DNA of 10,545 bases from a bacterium (GCA_040757115.1 JBFLYA010000104.1:1-10545), one strand, 5' to 3'; shown: positions 1,115 to 10,545, numbered from the stretch's first letter. Notes: generated from the letters alone by a model not told the origin. Program-made: numbers and translations.

Positions 1115-2059
1115 TTACTCCTCTCCTCCTGAGTCAATGCGTCCAATTATTTGTGTTGCTATGCGAGTTCCGATAATTCCTGGTCGGCATTTAAACTTAG
1201 GTATTTCATTGGCATACATAACTAATGGCTCATCCACCTTAGTTTTTAATCTCATGACATCACCTTCTTTTAATTCTAACATATCTCGCATAGTTACTTC
1301 AGTTTTACCTAACTCTACAATAAGAGGGATATTTACATCGGCTATAGTTTTTCGCATTTTAGCCATATCTTCCGGGGAGACGGTTGATTTTATTTCTTCT
1401 GATAGGGCAGGTTCACCTTCACCAGTGAATTTTGAAATTATTGGTTCTATTGTAAGGAAAGGTAGGCAAAGAGTCATATTTCCTGTTGTTTCACCTGTTT
1501 TTACTTCTATGGTTCCAACAAGTACTTTTTCCTGCGGGGAAGTAATCTGAACAAACTGTGGATTTGATTCAATCCTTTTGACCTGAGGGGTTAAGGTAAT
1601 TACATTTGCCCAGCCATTTTTTAAATCTATAACAAAATCTCTCATAATACCTTCTACCACCTCAAATTCAATATCTGTCAATCCACGTGTCAGTGAAATA
1701 ACCTCACCCTTACCACCTAATAATCTATCAATAAAATTAAATATCACATTAGGCGTTACCTCAATTAACGCCATACCTTTCAACGGACTCATATCTATCA
1801 TTCCGAGCACCGTTGGGACTTGAATAGTTTTGACAAAATCAGCATAGGCAAATTGAGTAACGGTTAAAACTTTTGTTTGAACTGTAGAGGCTAATTTAGC
1901 CGATAAAGAGGAGGCAACTTTCTGAGAAAAGGCATCAAATATTACTTGTAGAGAAGCAATTTTTTCCTTACCGACATCTTTAGTTTTTCTAAAATCAAAT
2001 TCTACAACCCGTTTTTCAAGCTCTTTTAAATCCTCGGTTATATCTTTTTTTTTAGTCAC
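1115..2059 (-). CDS. fliM: Flagellar motor switch protein FliM lacking the N-terminal CheY-binding segment
   Basis: FliM forms the middle of the cytoplasmic C-ring, binding FliG above and FliN/FliY below. The family core starts at FDFRK (residues 21-25). The CheC-like middle domain follows, with the conserved SPLKGMALIEVTP and DRLLGGKG stretch (about 91-118; GGKG corresponds to the family GGxG loop that contacts FliG). The C-terminal SpoA/FliN-like domain is at about 235-310 (MRDMLELKEGDVMRLKTK). The protein has 314 residues, slightly short for the family. The missing part is the N-terminal LSQxEIDxLL peptide that binds phosphorylated CheY; here the first 20 residues are a charged MTKKKDITEDLKELEKRVVE. 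The start is a GTG with a GGGGGA sequence seven bases upstream. An in-frame stop at 2078-2080 rules out a longer N-terminus in this frame. Assignment is secure; the functional meaning of the absent peptide is inferred. Confidence 0.96.
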   Translation of the reverse strand: MTKKKDITEDLKELEKRVVEFDFRKTKDVGKEKIASLQVIFDAFSQKVASSLSAKLASTVQTKVLTVTQFAYADFVKTIQVPTVLGMIDMSPLKGMALIEVTPNVIFNFIDRLLGGKGEVISLTRGLTDIEFEVVEGIMRDFVIDLKNGWANVITLTPQVKRIESNPQFVQITSPQEKVLVGTIEVKTGETTGNMTLCLPFLTIEPIISKFTGEGEPALSEEIKSTVSPEDMAKMRKTIADVNIPLIVELGKTEVTMRDMLELKEGDVMRLKTKVDEPLVMYANEIPKFKCRPGIIGTRIATQIIGRIDSGGEE

Positions 2060-2352: not shown

Positions 2353-2892
2353 CTATTGAACAAGTATTTGAAAATGGATATCCTCAATTTTCCCTTCTCG
2401 TAATATCTCATTGAGTGCCTTTTTCAATTCTTCTTTTAATGCCTTTTTCCCCTCAACGGTTCCTACCTCTATTGTTTTCCCTATGAGAACAGTATTAATA
2501 ATATCCTTAATTTGAGTTTCTCGTTCACCTAATTCTGCAGATAGCATATCATATTTTTCAGCATCATAATATAAAGTTACATCACTAATTTTAACATAGT
2601 GGTCTTCTTCAGGGTCAGATAATCTGGCGAGGTATGCCCCAATCTGATAAACATGTAGAGGTTTTGGAGGGAGTTTTTCCTCATGAGTGGTTTCTGGTTC
2701 AAATTCTAATTCAGGTGGAGTTGCTCGTTTTCCCGCGACGAACCAGGCAACAAGAGCGGCAATTACAAGGACTACTACCGCCACAATCGCTATCATCAGT
2801 ATATTTGGTAAGCCACCCTTCGGCTTACCTTTCTCTTCACCTTCTGCGGCCTCTTCACCCGCAGTTGCTTCTGCTTTTTCCTCTTCTGCCAT
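2353..2892 (-). CDS. fliL: Flagellar basal body-associated protein FliL
   Basis: FliL is a single-pass inner-membrane protein that surrounds or supports the MotAB stator at the motor. The 179-residue protein has an acidic, Ala/Glu-rich cytoplasmic segment (residues 1-28), one membrane segment (about 29-53, ILMIAIVAVVVLVIAALVAW) and a periplasmic domain. The domain shows the family pattern: a PKPLHVYQIGAYLARLSD strand, a HYVKISDVTLYYD strand, an ETQIKDIINTVLIGKT helix, a LKEELKKALNEILREGKI helix and the terminal FQILVQ. Length is usual for the family. The ATG at 2892-2890 is supported by an AGGAGT sequence nine bases upstream. It lies between flbD and fliM, as in many operons, but motA and motB, which often separate flbD from fliL, are absent. 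Family assignment is firm although FliL sequences diverge widely. Confidence 0.92.
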   Translation of the reverse strand: MAEEEKAEATAGEEAAEGEEKGKPKGGLPNILMIAIVAVVVLVIAALVAWFVAGKRATPPELEFEPETTHEEKLPPKPLHVYQIGAYLARLSDPEEDHYVKISDVTLYYDAEKYDMLSAELGERETQIKDIINTVLIGKTIEVGTVEGKKALKEELKKALNEILREGKIEDIHFQILVQ

Positions 2893-3252: not shown

Positions 3253-3450
3253 TCAATCTTCATTTCCAAACATCCCCATCTTTTTCCGATATTCTATAAT
3301 TCTTGAAATTATTGTCTCAATATTTTCTTTCACGATATATTTGGTTCCGGAGATAAGGGTTATCGTGGTATCAGGGTTAGCTTCCATATTTTCGATTTGA
3401 TGTGGGTTAAGAAAAAATTCACGACCATTAAGTCGAGTTAGTTTAATCAT
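3253..3450 (-). CDS. flbD: FlbD family flagellar protein
   Basis: FlbD here means the small PF06289-type protein found just downstream of flgE in many flagellar operons, not the Caulobacter response regulator of the same name. The 65-residue protein matches the family along its whole length: MIKLTRLNGREFFLNPHQIE at the start, then EANPDTTITLISGTKYIVKE and a C-terminal helix (ISRIIEYRKK). No membrane segment or catalytic motif is visible. Its biochemical role is poorly defined in the family; it is thought to act in flagellar regulation or assembly. GGTGAT lies a few bases before the ATG and serves as a moderate ribosome binding site. It is separated from flgE by 551 bp of repeats, whereas in most operons the two genes nearly abut. 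Confidence 0.95.
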   Translation of the reverse strand: MIKLTRLNGREFFLNPHQIENMEANPDTTITLISGTKYIVKENIETIISRIIEYRKKMGMFGNED

Positions 3451-4001: not shown

Positions 4002-7000
4002 TTATAGTCTCTTCATCGCGATAATATCAATAAACATTTGGTCTGCGGTAGTTACGGTTCTTGAATTAGCCTGGAAGGCGCGCTGGGCAATAATCATATC
4101 AGCAAATTCTTGAACTAAGTCAACATTTGATTTCTCTAACTGACCTGCACTTATCGTTCCTCGTCCATCTAATCCTGGTTTACCTATGGAAGAAGTGCCA
4201 GAATTAACTGTTTCCGCAAAGGTTGTTGCATCAAGTTTTGCCAGACCACTTGGATTATCAAATTTAGCCATAGATATCTGGCCAATATCTTGCGTTTGGC
4301 CATTATCATATTCAGCAATAACTACCCCTTCTGAATTTATCTTTGTTTTTTCATCAATAAGTTTTCCTATCCTATATCCATTCTGTTCACTTACCTTTGC
4401 TGTAGATGGGTTTGAAGAAAGTTGTGTAACTTGATTAAAGTCAGGCATAATTTTACTTGGATTTTGACCCTTTTCTGGTGGTGGTGCACCCTCAGTTTCT
4501 GGTGGAGTAGGTGTTGGTGGTGGGTCAAAGTATATCCCTTTATATCTTGAACCCGGGTCTAACGGGTCAGATGGTGACTCAAATATTTGAGAATTTTCTT
4601 TATCCAGTAGACCATTACCTGTAAAGGCTAAGATACCATATCCCGCTATCTTCTCTCTTTCTACTGGATTCATTATATACCACAGCCATTTATTGTAACT
4701 TAATCTCTCAAATTGGAAATTCCCTTTATAAGGATTTCCCAGAGAGTCATAGATATCTTGCGGAGTAGTATATTGATATTCTGATTGTAGTTTCAGATTT
4801 GTGGTTACTGCCTCTCCAGAATCGGCTAATTGAGGAATAGCGTTACTTGGGTAATTCGTTTTCGTGGTATTTGGTGTAAAGGTGATATTTTCTGGTCCTT
4901 CATTTCCATTAGGGATAAAGACATCAACCGCCAGCGGGAATATCCGACGATAATCCACGGTTACTTGACCCGCACCTAATGTCCCTGGATTTCTCACCTC
5001 CCATATAGTACCAGTTGGGTCTGGCATATAGTATTGTGAACCAGCATTTGGTTGTAAAAGGATACAATCAACTCCATTAGTTCCTTTGTTATCTTCGAAT
5101 ATCCAATCTGTTCGTGGTATAATTCTGCCATCTACTTTTACAACTAAAGATGTATCATCTACATCTGGATTATCTAAATCAAACGAATTTAATCGGGTAT
5201 AACTTACCAGGTAAGACCCTGGTGTTGTCAGAATTATTTGGTCCCTTCCACCAGGTCCGGTGCCGTCTGAAAATACCCAGGAATTTTCACCTACAACTCC
5301 CCCTCCAATGATATTCTTTATCAGAATAGTTGATTCATCTACATCAGCATTATTCAGGGTAATAAGTGCCGTGCTTCCCCTATACATTCCTTCGTCAATC
5401 ACCTGGGTACCACGCCTTCCCAGACCTGCTTCACCTACTTCTTCATTTCTAATCACATTAGGTATGATATTTACTCTAAATAAATCATTTCCTGTCCCAA
5501 ACAATCCTGTTGTTTCCCTCCATCCATCTTCTGGTCCAGGAACCTCTATTTCTAAATCCATAACAGAGTTATTATTACCTCCAACCTTTGTCCCTGTAGC
5601 AATATTGATTGCAGAAAAGAAAGGATGTAATCCTGTTTCTTCCAGGGTTATTTCATCACCCTCTTCACGACTTCTAATGCTAAATTTATCCATATCGGCA
5701 TGATAGGTTAGAACTACCCTGGCTTCACTGGCATTGATTTCATCGATTAAAGCATTTATTGTTGGATAATTAGCCGGAGTGATTGACCGCGACATATATA
5801 TTCCACTTCTCGAGGTAATTTTGATTGTTCCATCTACCGTGCCTCCTTCAAATTGGTCCCAACCAGCGGCCAGGTTTAGTGTTCGGTCTCCGCTTAATAC
5901 CTTTGAACTACTGTAAATAACTGGAGAAGCCTCTGTATCAACATAATTATCAATTACCTGACCATTTTTATCTAATTGTAATATCCCTCGTGCCTCTACG
6001 GTTTTATTATAGTAATAGTCTGCCACGATTGTATCTGTTTCCTGAACCGGTGAATGGGGGACCCCAATCCAGGCAAGCCCAGGATTTAGAATATTAGCCG
6101 CTGTCCAGAAACCATTAACATCAGTCTGGTGAATTCTGATACCAAGATTTGCCGGATTAGTATTTATCAAATAGAATCTATCCTTTTGTGGGTCATATCT
6201 AAGAATAAGCGGCATTGGTGAGGCAAGGATATCTGAGTAAGCATCATTAAAGAGATTAATAAACGATTGCACCGTGCCACTTCTAGTGCCTAAAGTTCCT
6301 CTCAGTCCGTCGGTCCATACCTGATGAATATTATTATTCGATGACCAGCTGGTCCACACACCCGGACTTACTTCCCACATAACAGAAACACAACTTGAAA
6401 GTGCAGGCACAGTATTGAATCCACCTCGGAGAAAAGATTGTGTTAAATCTAATGTATTTTTTACTATCTCTTCACGGCTTTGCGGATTTGCATCAGCGGC
6501 TATTGTTACCCAGCTTTTACCTGGTACGGCATTCATATGAAATCCTTCTCCGGGTAATTTAGCCAGACTAAGAAATCCCGCTGAGTTGGTTTGAATCGCT
6601 GAAATTGCCTGAGTATTCGTCATAAAAAATTTATCTTCTTTAGCACTATATGAGAGTTTCACAATACCATTTGTTTTGGTTTTTACAAGAGACATAAATT
6701 CTTCCACTGAGTTAAATGTGCTTAACATTGGTGATGTCCAGTCTCCACCTTGCCATCTAAATGTTACCTGACTGGCAAGCATTGAACTTGTCCACAGACC
6801 AGTAGCCGCGGCACACCAATTAAACCCTGCCTCTCTAAAAGCTCTGGTAACATTTAATGTATCTGTTACCACCTCTTCACTACTACTTGCTGAATAGAAA
6901 GTAATCTGGTCATTTCCACCTACACCCTGGTTATTATGGAATTTATAGGTTGTGCCTGGTTGAACCTGACCGTTTACCTTTATTTGTAATCTTGTTGGGT

Positions 7001-8489
7001 CAACAGTTGAATTATGCATATTATAACCATTTCTTTTATAATCAACAGCAATTGTGGCTCCGGCTAAAGGTGCATAAGGAAAATATAGTCGGTCAACACC
7101 ATTTGAAGATACTCCAAATCTCATATCCTCACCATCATCATCAAAATAATAAATAGAAGTTTGCTCTGAATTAGTAACAGCCATAGATGCCTTTCCGGCT
7201 AAAGTAATCATCATTGAACCAGTTGGTTTAGTAATGTATACCTCAAGAGTAGTAGGGTCTATATCCGGGTCACCTAAATCAAACACTTTGGTGACACTAT
7301 CACCCATACCTATTATTTTTCCAACGACTTTACCGGGGTCCAGGGAATTTGGGCCTCGCAGTGGGTCACCACGTTCGAAATGATAAGCATTAGTTGTGAT
7401 AAAATTAGTGGTAGTTGGGTCAACTGCCTTCCAGCGATAATAATTACGGTCTGGATGTTGCGGGTCAAGAAGATGTTCAAATTGGAGTTCCATCCTGGCA
7501 TTGACATTATAGGTAAATGGTGCTTGTTCTGTGCCGCTCGTAATGAATACTTGCGTAAAGAACCCATGCCCTGGTGTATCAGCTACCTCACCTAATGATA
7601 CCTCAGCATCTGCATTATCTGGTGTAATAATAAATTTATCACTTTCATATTTGATGGTTACATTTGCTTGTGCCGAGATATTGATTGCATTCATCAAGGC
7701 AGAAGGTGTTTCATATCCACCTTCTCCTCCAACTTTATATGTTACACCATTGATAATAATTTTCCCATCAGGTGTTTCATTAAATCCTGCCTGGTTCCAC
7801 GGTTTTGTAATGTCTATTCCTCCCCGGTCTTTGGAAACTGGCACGACACTCGCCACACTTTTCATAAAAGATAAATTTTTAAAATCTACCGGTAATACTT
7901 GTTGAGATTTGAGGTCACCTGTAAATTTAACAGACTCAGTGGCTTTCCCGGGCATAATATCACCTTTAATTATCTTTACCCCTCTCAATTCACCAGTACT
8001 ATCGATTATAGTCCTATTAGCCGCATCTTTTAGAAGTTGTCCTGTAACAGGGTCTCTCTGGGCATTCCACCCTAAAACCTTAAATCCATTTCCTGGATTT
8101 ACCAGATTTCCATCCCTATCGAAATCAAAACTTCCTGCTCTTGTATAGCGAAAGTTAGGACTCACACCGTCACTCAGAATAAAAAAGCTTTTTTCTCCAT
8201 TTATGGCTAAATCAGTATTTCTCCCCGTAGGCTGTAATTGACCTTGTGTAAATACTGTCTGGATAGTAACCAGGTTTGTCCCTAAACCAACCTGCTTTGG
8301 GAGTATACCTCCCACATTCTCACGCGGTGCTACCGCACTTTTAAGATTTTGGTTAAGAATGTCTTCAAACGACACACTCGACCGCTTAAAACCAGTAGAG
8401 TTGATGTTGGCTAAATTTTCCCCTATTACATCTAACCACATCAAGTGAGATTTTAAACCACTTACCCCTGAAAAAAATGATCCTATCAT
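4002..8489 (-). CDS. flgE: Giant flagellar hook protein FlgE with a ~1000-residue repeat insertion
   Basis: FlgE polymerises outside the cell into the universal-joint hook. The N-terminus is canonical (MIGSFFSGVSGLKSHLMWLD, ENLANINSTGFKRS), as are the D1 region to about residue 195 (TGRNTDLAINGEKSFFILSD, FTGDL), the later DIYDSLGNPY segment (about 1245) and the C-terminus (NGYRIGKLIDE, SGQLE-like AGQLEKSNVDLVQEFADMI, final QRAFQANSRTVTTADQM). Between about 195 and 1235 lies an insertion. It holds four flagellin/hook IN-like units (about 262-322, 592-655, 735-800, 905-970) with a core like YxxxxDKFxIxx, and four units of a second type centred on D-x-D (Asp411, 497, 1049, 1109), the last two spaced 60 residues apart. 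A proline-rich stretch (PPPTPTPPETEGAPPPEKG) lies at about 1322. Three cysteines are scattered in the insert. At 1495 residues it is several times the usual 400-700. A strong ribosome binding site and upstream promoter support the start. Confidence 0.97.
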   Translation of the reverse strand: MIGSFFSGVSGLKSHLMWLDVIGENLANINSTGFKRSSVSFEDILNQNLKSAVAPRENVGGILPKQVGLGTNLVTIQTVFTQGQLQPTGRNTDLAINGEKSFFILSDGVSPNFRYTRAGSFDFDRDGNLVNPGNGFKVLGWNAQRDPVTGQLLKDAANRTIIDSTGELRGVKIIKGDIMPGKATESVKFTGDLKSQQVLPVDFKNLSFMKSVASVVPVSKDRGGIDITKPWNQAGFNETPDGKIIINGVTYKVGGEGGYETPSALMNAINISAQANVTIKYESDKFIITPDNADAEVSLGEVADTPGHGFFTQVFITSGTEQAPFTYNVNARMELQFEHLLDPQHPDRNYYRWKAVDPTTTNFITTNAYHFERGDPLRGPNSLDPGKVVGKIIGMGDSVTKVFDLGDPDIDPTTLEVYITKPTGSMMITLAGKASMAVTNSEQTSIYYFDDDGEDMRFGVSSNGVDRLYFPYAPLAGATIAVDYKRNGYNMHNSTVDPTRLQIKVNGQVQPGTTYKFHNNQGVGGNDQITFYSASSSEEVVTDTLNVTRAFREAGFNWCAAATGLWTSSMLASQVTFRWQGGDWTSPMLSTFNSVEEFMSLVKTKTNGIVKLSYSAKEDKFFMTNTQAISAIQTNSAGFLSLAKLPGEGFHMNAVPGKSWVTIAADANPQSREEIVKNTLDLTQSFLRGGFNTVPALSSCVSVMWEVSPGVWTSWSSNNNIHQVWTDGLRGTLGTRSGTVQSFINLFNDAYSDILASPMPLILRYDPQKDRFYLINTNPANLGIRIHQTDVNGFWTAANILNPGLAWIGVPHSPVQETDTIVADYYYNKTVEARGILQLDKNGQVIDNYVDTEASPVIYSSSKVLSGDRTLNLAAGWDQFEGGTVDGTIKITSRSGIYMSRSITPANYPTINALIDEINASEARVVLTYHADMDKFSIRSREEGDEITLEETGLHPFFSAINIATGTKVGGNNNSVMDLEIEVPGPEDGWRETTGLFGTGNDLFRVNIIPNVIRNEEVGEAGLGRRGTQVIDEGMYRGSTALITLNNADVDESTILIKNIIGGGVVGENSWVFSDGTGPGGRDQIILTTPGSYLVSYTRLNSFDLDNPDVDDTSLVVKVDGRIIPRTDWIFEDNKGTNGVDCILLQPNAGSQYYMPDPTGTIWEVRNPGTLGAGQVTVDYRRIFPLAVDVFIPNGNEGPENITFTPNTTKTNYPSNAIPQLADSGEAVTTNLKLQSEYQYTTPQDIYDSLGNPYKGNFQFERLSYNKWLWYIMNPVEREKIAGYGILAFTGNGLLDKENSQIFESPSDPLDPGSRYKGIYFDPPPTPTPPETEGAPPPEKGQNPSKIMPDFNQVTQLSSNPSTAKVSEQNGYRIGKLIDEKTKINSEGVVIAEYDNGQTQDIGQISMAKFDNPSGLAKLDATTFAETVNSGTSSIGKPGLDGRGTISAGQLEKSNVDLVQEFADMIIAQRAFQANSRTVTTADQMFIDIIAMKRL

Positions 8490-8995: not shown

Positions 8996-9024
8996 TTTGT
9001 GAGTCGTAGACTCATGAGCGTTTC
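8996..9024 (+). repeat. Hairpin-flank repeat, copy A
   Basis: TTTG, then the stem TGAGTC-GTA-GACTCA (9000-9014), then CATGAGCGTTTC (9013-9024). The same flanks occur at 9305-9333 and 9372-9404. This copy abuts the left edge of the 142-bp duplication. Confidence 0.65.
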
Positions 9025-9304
9025 CCCTGAAAATAGCGAATTAGTGAATTAGAGATTAGTGAATTAGTATAGTATCCACAGACTCGTATCCTCTGGTTTA
9101 GAACAGATATTCCCCCTTAATAAAGGGGGTTAGGGGGTTGTTCTTCCATTATTTTCATCCCCTTTCCCCTGAAAATAGCGAATTAGTGAATTAGAGATTA
9201 GTGAATTAGTATAGTATCCACAGACTCGTATCCTCTGGTTTAGAACAGATATTCCCCCTTAATAAAGGGGGTTAGGGGGTTGTTCTTCCATTATTTTCAT
9301 CCCC
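9021..9304 (+). repeat. Perfect 142-bp tandem duplication
   Basis: Positions 9021-9162 and 9163-9304 are identical over all 142 bases by eye, and the match runs three bases further (ttt). Each unit is composite: a cccctgaaaat start, gaattag/gattag words repeated four times, a ccacaga...tctgg segment, and the hairpin CCCCCTT-AATA-AAGGGGG (9112-9129 and 9254-9271) followed by gttagggggttgtt. The CCCCCTT hairpin type is widespread in environmental bacterial genomes. Perfect identity points to a recent duplication or an assembly artefact. Confidence 0.9.
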
Positions 9305-9333
9305 TTTGTGAGTCGCAGACTCATGAGCGTTTC
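9305..9333 (+). repeat. Hairpin-flank repeat, copy B
   Basis: Nearly identical to copy A: stem TGAGTC-GCA-GACTCA (9309-9323) followed by CATGAGCGTTTC (9322-9333). The single difference from copy A is in the loop (GTA to GCA). It abuts the right edge of the 142-bp duplication. Confidence 0.65.
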
Positions 9334-9404: not shown

Positions 9405-10545
9405 TCATGCTATAAAATCAATTTTTGAGATAAACCAAAATAATTTATTACCACCTGGACTTGCATTTATTAATATCCTATTCTCATCACCTCTTTCCCC
9501 CACCTTTTCGTCCTCTTCATTGTAGGAAGATATTTTTATATTATCAATATACCTTTGATGTCTTTCTTCTAAATTTTTTCCTGGTTCCTGACCAACATAG
9601 ACTTCAATACCCTGTAAATCAAGTCCCTTTTCTACAAGGATTTCTTTTAAGGAAGCAAGTTCTGACTCAATTAATTCTTTTAATTCAAAGTTTTCTACGA
9701 CAAATTTAGCGAATATCTTTCCATCCTGCTGGGTTATTTTTAATTCTAATTTACCCAGATATTCGGGCTTGAGTTTAACCTGAATCTCCGAACTATCTTT
9801 TTTCAGATGAAGAGATGCTTCTTCTATGAATTCATAAAGTATTTCCTTAAATATTAAATTAGTCATACTTGCATCAGGTAATGAAGCTGGGATTTCTACC
9901 CTATTTGTCCCTTGAATCGCTGAATTGTAAGTTAAATTTATATTATTATCCTTTAATACCCCAGATTCATCTTGCTGATTTACTCTATTTTCAGTAAAGA
10001 CTATTCTCTTTTTTACTGATTTAAACATTTCTGGTAAATTTATAAATGATTTTTGTTTATCTTCTGGTTTAATGTTATCTTCCTCTTTTTCTCTCTTAAA
10101 ATTCATACTCTCTTGAAATAATACTGGTAGTATTCTATGGAGTAATTCTACTCCTTTTTCTTGATGCATTGGAATAAAAGTATTTTCTTGTGGTTTAAAA
10201 ATAGGCAATTTAGACATCTCTTCTATCTTTTCAACTCCTACTTTTTGCATAAGTGATAATAGTGAATCTTCATTATTGCGGATTGCGGATTGCGGATTGC
10301 GAATTGGGTTATCATCTATAAAATTTTGGATTTTAGATTTTGGATTTTGGATTTGTGGGATATCTATCTTTATCGTTGTCCCAACTACTAATTTCGGCTC
10401 CTCTTTTTTAACCTCTGGTGGCATATTATGTTTTGGTTGTTCTTGCTTTGTTTCCATTTCTATCTTCTCATCTTTTATCATCGTCCCGAGTATTATTTCC
10501 GGCTCCTTTGCCTTAACCTCAAACGGCTTACCAGTATTTAATTGC
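9405..10545 (-). CDS. fliK: Flagellar hook-length control protein FliK, 5' end outside the window
   Basis: FliK is a secreted molecular ruler that stops hook growth and switches the export gate to late substrates. The recognisable part is the C-terminal Flg_hook domain (PF02120-like), about 9600-9830: SSEIQVKLKPEYLGKLELKI, then FVVENFELKELIESELASLK and EKGLDLQGIEVYV. The N-terminal part is hydrophilic, Lys/Glu/Pro-rich and low in complexity, as expected of the ruler region. The frame stays open from the ATG at 10481 to the window edge (21 further codons). Those codons carry a copy of a sequence repeated inside the protein, so this ATG is probably internal and the gene is truncated by the window. 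Two heptamer repeat arrays are built into the coding sequence. The C-terminal tail (NKLFWFISKIDFIA) is unusual. No flgD follows, though it commonly does. Confidence 0.9.
   Translation of the reverse strand, partial: QLNTGKPFEVKAKEPEIILGTMIKDEKIEMETKQEQPKHNMPPEVKKEEPKLVVGTTIKIDIPQIQNPKSKIQNFIDDNPIRNPQSAIRNNEDSLLSLMQKVGVEKIEEMSKLPIFKPQENTFIPMHQEKGVELLHRILPVLFQESMNFKREKEEDNIKPEDKQKSFINLPEMFKSVKKRIVFTENRVNQQDESGVLKDNNINLTYNSAIQGTNRVEIPASLPDASMTNLIFKEILYEFIEEASLHLKKDSSEIQVKLKPEYLGKLELKITQQDGKIFAKFVVENFELKELIESELASLKEILVEKGLDLQGIEVYVGQEPGKNLEERHQRYIDNIKISSYNEEDEKVGERGDENRILINASPGGNKLFWFISKIDFIA
10275..10350 (-). repeat. Two heptamer repeat arrays inside the fliK coding sequence
   Basis: On the plus strand, ATTGCGG and close variants repeat about 4.7 times at 10275-10307, and ATTTTGG and close variants four times at 10323-10350. 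On the coding strand they read as NPIRNPQSAIRN and IQNPKSKIQN, parallel peptides of the form NPxSxIxN. These heptamers are typical of intergenic interspersed repeats, but here both sit in frame in the ruler region. Confidence 0.8.
10362..10520 (-). repeat. 54-bp in-frame direct repeat in fliK, 105-bp period
   Basis: Segments 10362-10415 and 10467-10520 align without gaps at roughly three quarters identity, and encode EVKKEEPKLVVGTTIKID and EVKAKEPEIILGTMIKDE. The 105-bp offset is 35 codons, so the frame is kept. The upstream copy crosses the ATG at 10481, which argues that this ATG is not the true start and that further units may lie beyond the window. Confidence 0.75.

Follow-up and report, generated by a model that had tools for sequence, protein, structure and literature searches.

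A giant, repeat-built flagellar hook protein in a bacterial clade without recognizable filament genes

The flagellum of Campylobacter jejuni has a flagellin filament. Its hook protein FlgE has 851-865 residues (PDB 5jxl, 5az4; PMC5097172, PMC5069557), and the hook is wide, at 280 Å for an FlgE of 851 residues (PMC5097172). In Buchnera, hook-basal bodies keep the export apparatus and the basal body while the filament is absent (PMC3459982), and Salmonella polyhook mutants show that a filament-free FlgE tube is physically possible (PMC6972891). Here we describe an FlgE of 1495 residues encoded on a 10,545-nucleotide stretch of bacterial DNA (JBFLYA010000104.1:1-10545, assembly GCA_040757115.1), the whole of which is referred to below as the window. 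At the protein level it is a longer variant of the known long FlgE proteins. At the system level it is a conserved giant hook in genomes that keep MotA but have no recognizable flagellin, hook-associated proteins or cap, and for this combination the nearest precedent is Buchnera (PMC3459982). No description of a filament-less flagellum with a giant FlgE was found in the literature searched, the search being incomplete.

The flgE reading frame contains no internal stops over its 1495 codons. Pfam matches are confined to the two ends of the protein and comprise all canonical FlgE parts in the expected order: the rod N-terminus (residues 8-35), D1 (95-167), FlgE_D2 (1229-1372) and Flg_bbr_C (1449-1486). 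The last three exceed the Pfam cut-offs; the rod N-terminus scored 18.4 bits against a cut-off of 20.7 in the search with the protein itself and 24 bits, above the cut-off, in the genome search. NCBIfam model TIGR03506 (FlgE/F/G) matched with 260.8 bits (cut-off 70.25). The FlgE equivalog NF004241 matched in two pieces with 314.5 bits against a cut-off of 469, the cut-offs coming from models without an insert, and the best full-protein NCBIfam model is FlgE. C. jejuni FlgE (5jxl) aligns at residues 4-149 and 1358-1493, with nothing between. The gene encodes a true FlgE and one real single protein, in agreement with an earlier sequence-only reading of the window, which had noted an uninterrupted frame with both ends intact and no fusion error; the orthologues described below agree.

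The insert occupies approximately residues 197-1228, about 1,030 residues, and starts directly behind the first D2 strand, where, by reading, the D3 domains of C. jejuni and Caulobacter FlgE also sit (PMC5069557). This is the position of D3/D4 in long FlgE proteins. The sequence-only reading had proposed a repeat-built insertion of about 1000 residues at the D2/D3 site, with bounds of 195 and 1235. The site is confirmed, the bounds are essentially right, and protein-level repeats were found by profile self-comparison. C. jejuni FlgE likewise has a conserved D0/D1/D2 core with extra domains in D2 at the same site, but its insert is about 386 residues long and has no sequence match to that of the giant FlgE. 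The gene and its parts are as follows.

4002..8489, minus strand: flgE, giant flagellar hook protein, 1495 residues (open reading frame, Pfam, NCBIfam, C. jejuni FlgE alignment, orthologues)
7902..8489, minus strand: FlgE N-terminal core (D0, D1 and first D2 strand), residues 1-196 (Pfam and PDB matches; boundary read against C. jejuni FlgE, PMC5069557)
7521..7841, minus strand: module A1, predicted flagellin-IN/FliD type, residues 217-323 (self-comparison; PF07196 at this position in orthologues)
7299..7520, minus strand: conserved linker Lk1, residues 324-397 (conservation)
7032..7298, minus strand: module B1, residues 398-486 (profile self-comparison)
6876..7031, minus strand: module B2, residues 487-538 (profile self-comparison)
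6522..6872, minus strand: module A2, residues 540-656 (profile self-comparison)
6057..6470, minus strand: module A3, residues 674-811 (profile self-comparison)
5895..6056, minus strand: conserved linker Lk2, residues 812-865 (conservation)
5580..5894, minus strand: module A4, residues 866-970, the sole part with a usable model (profile self-comparison, structure prediction)
5376..5579, minus strand: conserved linker Lk3, residues 971-1038 (conservation)
5196..5375, minus strand: module B3, residues 1039-1098 (profile self-comparison)
4941..5195, minus strand: module B4, residues 1099-1183 (profile self-comparison)
4002..4940, minus strand: FlgE C-terminal part (rest of D2, D1 and D0), residues 1184-1495 (FlgE_D2 at 1229-1372, Flg_bbr_C at 1449-1486)

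Profile self-comparison thus resolved two kinds of module, each present four times: type A, of about 105-138 residues, and type B, of about 55-85 residues with a pattern of roughly DVDxTxLxVxVxG...F.DN.G.GG.D.I.F. A unit of the form A-linker-B-B is present twice (residues 217-538 and 864-1152; E 1.9e-22 over 267 columns), and between its copies sits the pair A2-A3, whose members share 35% identity (E 1.9e-25). The repeats are clear at the protein level and weak at the DNA level, so the duplications must be old. When compared by hhalign, Lk1 showed no significant similarity to FlgE_D2.

At the position of A1, three orthologues scored above the cut-off of 22.7 for PF07196 (flagellin IN), with 24.1, 30.5 and 24.1 (L014, L015 and L016). 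The FlgE of the window gave no PF07196 match up to E 5 and is tied to this family through its alignment to the three orthologues and through its predicted fold, b-b-a-b-b-b for module A. The models had mean predicted local distance difference test (pLDDT) values of 45 and 33 overall, rising to 60-82 across the A module. All of the best structural matches of the A model come from flagellar proteins (FliD D2, FlgK, H. pylori FlgE2 and flagellins), with middling Z-scores of up to 7.5 against FliD D2 and FlgK. Since overall confidence was low and the Z-scores middling, only module A was interpreted, jointly with the Pfam result. On this combined profile and model evidence, type A is predicted to be a flagellin-IN/FliD-type module. 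Sequence searches of the PDB with modules A and B found no match, no solved structure was found for module B, and a PHROGs search returned nothing solid. A-like modules are not unique to this hook protein, because the predicted module A aligns with a domain of H. pylori FlgE2 (PDB 5npy; VIA-align Z 5.8, root mean square deviation 2.8, 92 residues). However, only one domain of that 618-residue chain aligned, compared with four A and four B modules in the giant FlgE.

Giant FlgE was found in 12 genomes from four families of one small phylum. Eleven copies, that of the window included, are full length at 1495-1522 residues and share the same architecture; the twelfth is truncated where its contig ends. 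Identity to the FlgE of the window is 95% within the genus, 72-73% within the family, 50-52% within the order and 44-46% in two further families, and conservation of the insert almost equals that of the ends. Relative to the sister genus, the ratio of nonsynonymous to synonymous substitution rates (dN/dS) is 0.14-0.23 in the insert and 0.08-0.12 in the ends, indicating purifying selection. Misassembly, gene fusion or decay of the gene has to be considered in a draft genome of 462 contigs with repeats in the neighboring fliK and in the upstream region. Equal length and architecture in independent genomes at identities as low as about 40-45%, the absence of stops and a dN/dS well below 1 make such an explanation extremely improbable, and the 11 full-length copies from independent assemblies rule out a local misassembly. 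The length survey found long FlgE in the relatives, as expected from the sequence-only reading, and ordinary FlgE is absent from the family, order and sister families of the window. Outside the phylum, stop-to-stop FlgE frames in 130 genomes, among the matches listed, had a median of 570 residues and a maximum of 1138. An assumed usual range of 400-700 residues is therefore roughly true, but seven of these genomes have FlgE frames above 1000 residues.

Between the giant FlgE proteins of the two congeneric genomes, the differences concentrate in a few short insert loops (residues about 411-445, 558-575, 685-750 and 1040-1100), which are perhaps exposed tips. Positive selection in the insert was considered and rejected: dS is also raised in one variable loop, and other pairs show no pN above pS.

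Presence and absence of flagellar genes were surveyed in 19 genomes of the phylum, comprising the 12 with giant FlgE, six with other FlgE and one further genome, G014. The giant-FlgE genomes had no recognizable flagellin, FlgL, FliD or FlgK (Flagellin_N, FliD_C and FlgK_D1 each 0/12); the Flagellin_N profile also picks up FlgL-sized proteins. Among the genomes with other FlgE, the same profiles matched in 6/6, 6/6 and 5/6, respectively. The genes flgK and flgL often come after flgJ; in the genomes inspected, other genes come after it. MotA is present and highly conserved in 12/12 giant-FlgE genomes, FlhA is present in 11/12 (the exception being G007), and FliK is detectable in most. G006 has confirmed FliP, FlhB, FliR and FliA, and by reading a FlgM-like open reading frame shares a contig with its fliA; FlgH, FlgI and FlgG were confirmed in the genome of the window. 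MotB was confirmed in G017 and, of the four families, was seen beside MotA only in f4 and f8, and flgD adjoins flgE in G004 (confirmed) and in G009 and G016 (by reading). An apparent loss of MotA, as suggested by PF20560 alone, was overturned by a profile made from the phylum's own MotA. G014, which lies inside the giant clade and is 97% complete, has FlhA, MotA and FliK and no FlgE, flagellin, FlgK or FliD match, reflecting either further loss or an assembly gap.

The link between giant FlgE and missing flagellin is specific to this clade, because Flagellin_N matched in 23/23 genomes tested outside the phylum, almost all of which have long FlgE; these genomes also led us to reject a general rule that long FlgE means no flagellin.

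Because the filament genes are missing while MotA is kept throughout, the export gate FlhA almost throughout, and rod, rings, FlgD, FliK, FliA and switch parts in members checked for them, the giant hook is most likely the main axial polymer. We consider it probable that these bacteria have a filament-less or hook-only flagellum, with the giant hook as the main, perhaps the only, extracellular axial polymer. Exported by the flagellar gate, FlgE would assemble on the rod, beneath FlgD, as the usual 11-protofilament tube, formed by the D0/D1/D2 core. We infer that the A and B modules of the D2 insert would point outwards as a thick outer shell, that FliK would set the hook length, and that no filament, of flagellin or of any other protein, would follow. 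In sister lineages a surface decorated with modules belongs to flagellins, FliD and FlgK; here the giant hook would bear it. Its width would be about 37-39 nm, a value that is only an estimate from a cross-section scaled by mass from C. jejuni. The Salmonella polyhook differs from the state proposed here in being a mutant phenotype with an ordinary-sized FlgE rather than an evolved condition. The sequence-only reading had foreseen very large surface domains, perhaps forming a sheath-like or adhesive layer. Large outer domains are very likely, but IN-type modules combined with the absence of filament genes point to a hook without a recognizable filament and not to an ordinary hook with a thick sheath; an adhesive role found no direct support.

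The distribution of type A modules bears on this reading. PF07196/FliD D2 modules normally occur in flagellin, FliD and FlgK, whereas here four stand in the FlgE of genomes without those proteins. Among the flagellin-bearing members of the phylum, FliD contains A modules in 6/6. So do large flagellins, with three copies in each of those checked from G008 and G013, as well as one FlgK, the medium-length FlgE (975-1071 residues) of G008, G012 and G013, and FlgE-like frames in G011. No A module is present in the shortest FlgE proteins of the phylum (575-595 residues; G010 and G015).

Several observations weigh against a hook-only flagellum. AlphaFold gave no reliable model of the whole insert (pLDDT 33), so that the separate outer domains proposed by the sequence-only reading find support in the sequence modules but not in a structure model of the full insert. 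No flgD open reading frame was found in the window, where a 900-bp non-coding stretch takes the place that flgD has in relatives. The giant lineages form one clade in the FlhA tree (100/99), so the loss of filament genes was probably one event, and the association between giant FlgE and a missing filament therefore rests on a single clade. The FlgE of flagellin-bearing relatives already has A modules. The genomes are drafts, and a very diverged flagellin could escape the profiles. FliK and FliA are kept, although they usually serve late (filament) substrates. This last point also favors an explanation in which a filament exists, made of a protein unrelated to or far diverged from flagellin, with the giant FlgE forming a wide hook beneath it: FliK in most giant-FlgE genomes and FliA in G006 would normally serve the late-substrate switch, and most of the clade also encodes large secreted proteins that contain an A4-like module. 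One such protein, of 2486 residues, is encoded in the genome of the window (L050:2543-10000, minus strand; G000:C92), with the A4-like module at residues 1973-2066. Its apparent signal peptide, its DUF11 and beta-propeller domains and its lack of coiled-coil ends argue against a filament role, the FlgK and FlgL adaptors and the FliD cap are likewise absent, and we judge such a filament to be quite unlikely.

One further point against the hook-only reading is that MotB was not found in the order of the window; in families f1 and f2 it is not beside MotA and did not turn up in the contigs examined, no genome-wide search having been made. This point fits a non-propelling hook-basal body used for export or attachment, in which the shell would serve contact or stability. 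The absence of filament genes with retention of export genes and the precedent of Buchnera (PMC3459982) also fit. The giant-FlgE clade nevertheless has an enlarged, conserved FlgE, together with MotA and FliM. Buchnera, by comparison, lacks the motor. MotA conserved throughout, MotB beside it in f4 and f8 and FliM in the window are costly parts for a static tube, and a non-propelling structure appears unlikely. Within the hook-only reading, propulsion by an enlarged, module-coated hook that is turned by a normal motor and replaces the flagellin filament, its length being set by a FliK ruler built of repeats, is put forward only tentatively, as a possibility.

If the hook-only reading is true, these bacteria have a natural flagellum that works without a filament, and their flagellin-bearing sisters show an intermediate state, with A modules in FlgE, FliD, flagellins and one FlgK. 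An exchange of roles between hook and filament would become testable, as would FliK/FliA control after flagellin loss and the question of whether hook rotation can drive cell movement. For annotation, the presence of flgE, fliM and motA need not imply a filament.

The flgE neighborhood in the window is that of a hook gene and includes four further flagellar genes.

9405..10545, minus strand: fliK (hook-length ruler), C-terminal part (PF02120; frame continues past the window)
3253..3450, minus strand: flbD (PF06289)
2353..2892, minus strand: fliL (PF03748)
1115..2059, minus strand: fliM, motor switch (PF02154; TIGR01397 above cut-off)

On its contig the fliK frame encodes at least 1381 residues (to L053:13551), in which an 83-residue unit is repeated in tandem about 11-12 times; the frame is open to the contig end and contains one assembly gap, and repeat counts in drafts are uncertain. 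The FliK frames in the three remaining members of the family likewise extend past their contigs, the coordinates place those of G006, G016 and G018 at contig ends, and long FliK occurs as well in the flagellin-bearing G008 and G013. Salmonella FliK has 405 residues for a hook of about 55 nm (PMC6972891). As FliK is the hook-length ruler and its frame here is long, a long hook is plausible. The non-coding stretch between fliK and flgE contains a 142-bp exact tandem duplication (9021-9307).

Two genomes of the phylum, G011 and G012, have several FlgE-like genes each (L054, L055, L056), which lie in tandem in G012. A clear MotA is missing from both genomes, and G011 is also without a FlgK match; a frame of 25,495 residues in G011 was dismissed as an artefact. 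G001 has a second, diverged FlhA/FlhB/FliR/FliQ/FliP-like set (L133, G001:C3:25000-44999; FlhA 39% identical) that adjoins a protein kinase and an FHA protein and is perhaps a non-flagellar type III system.

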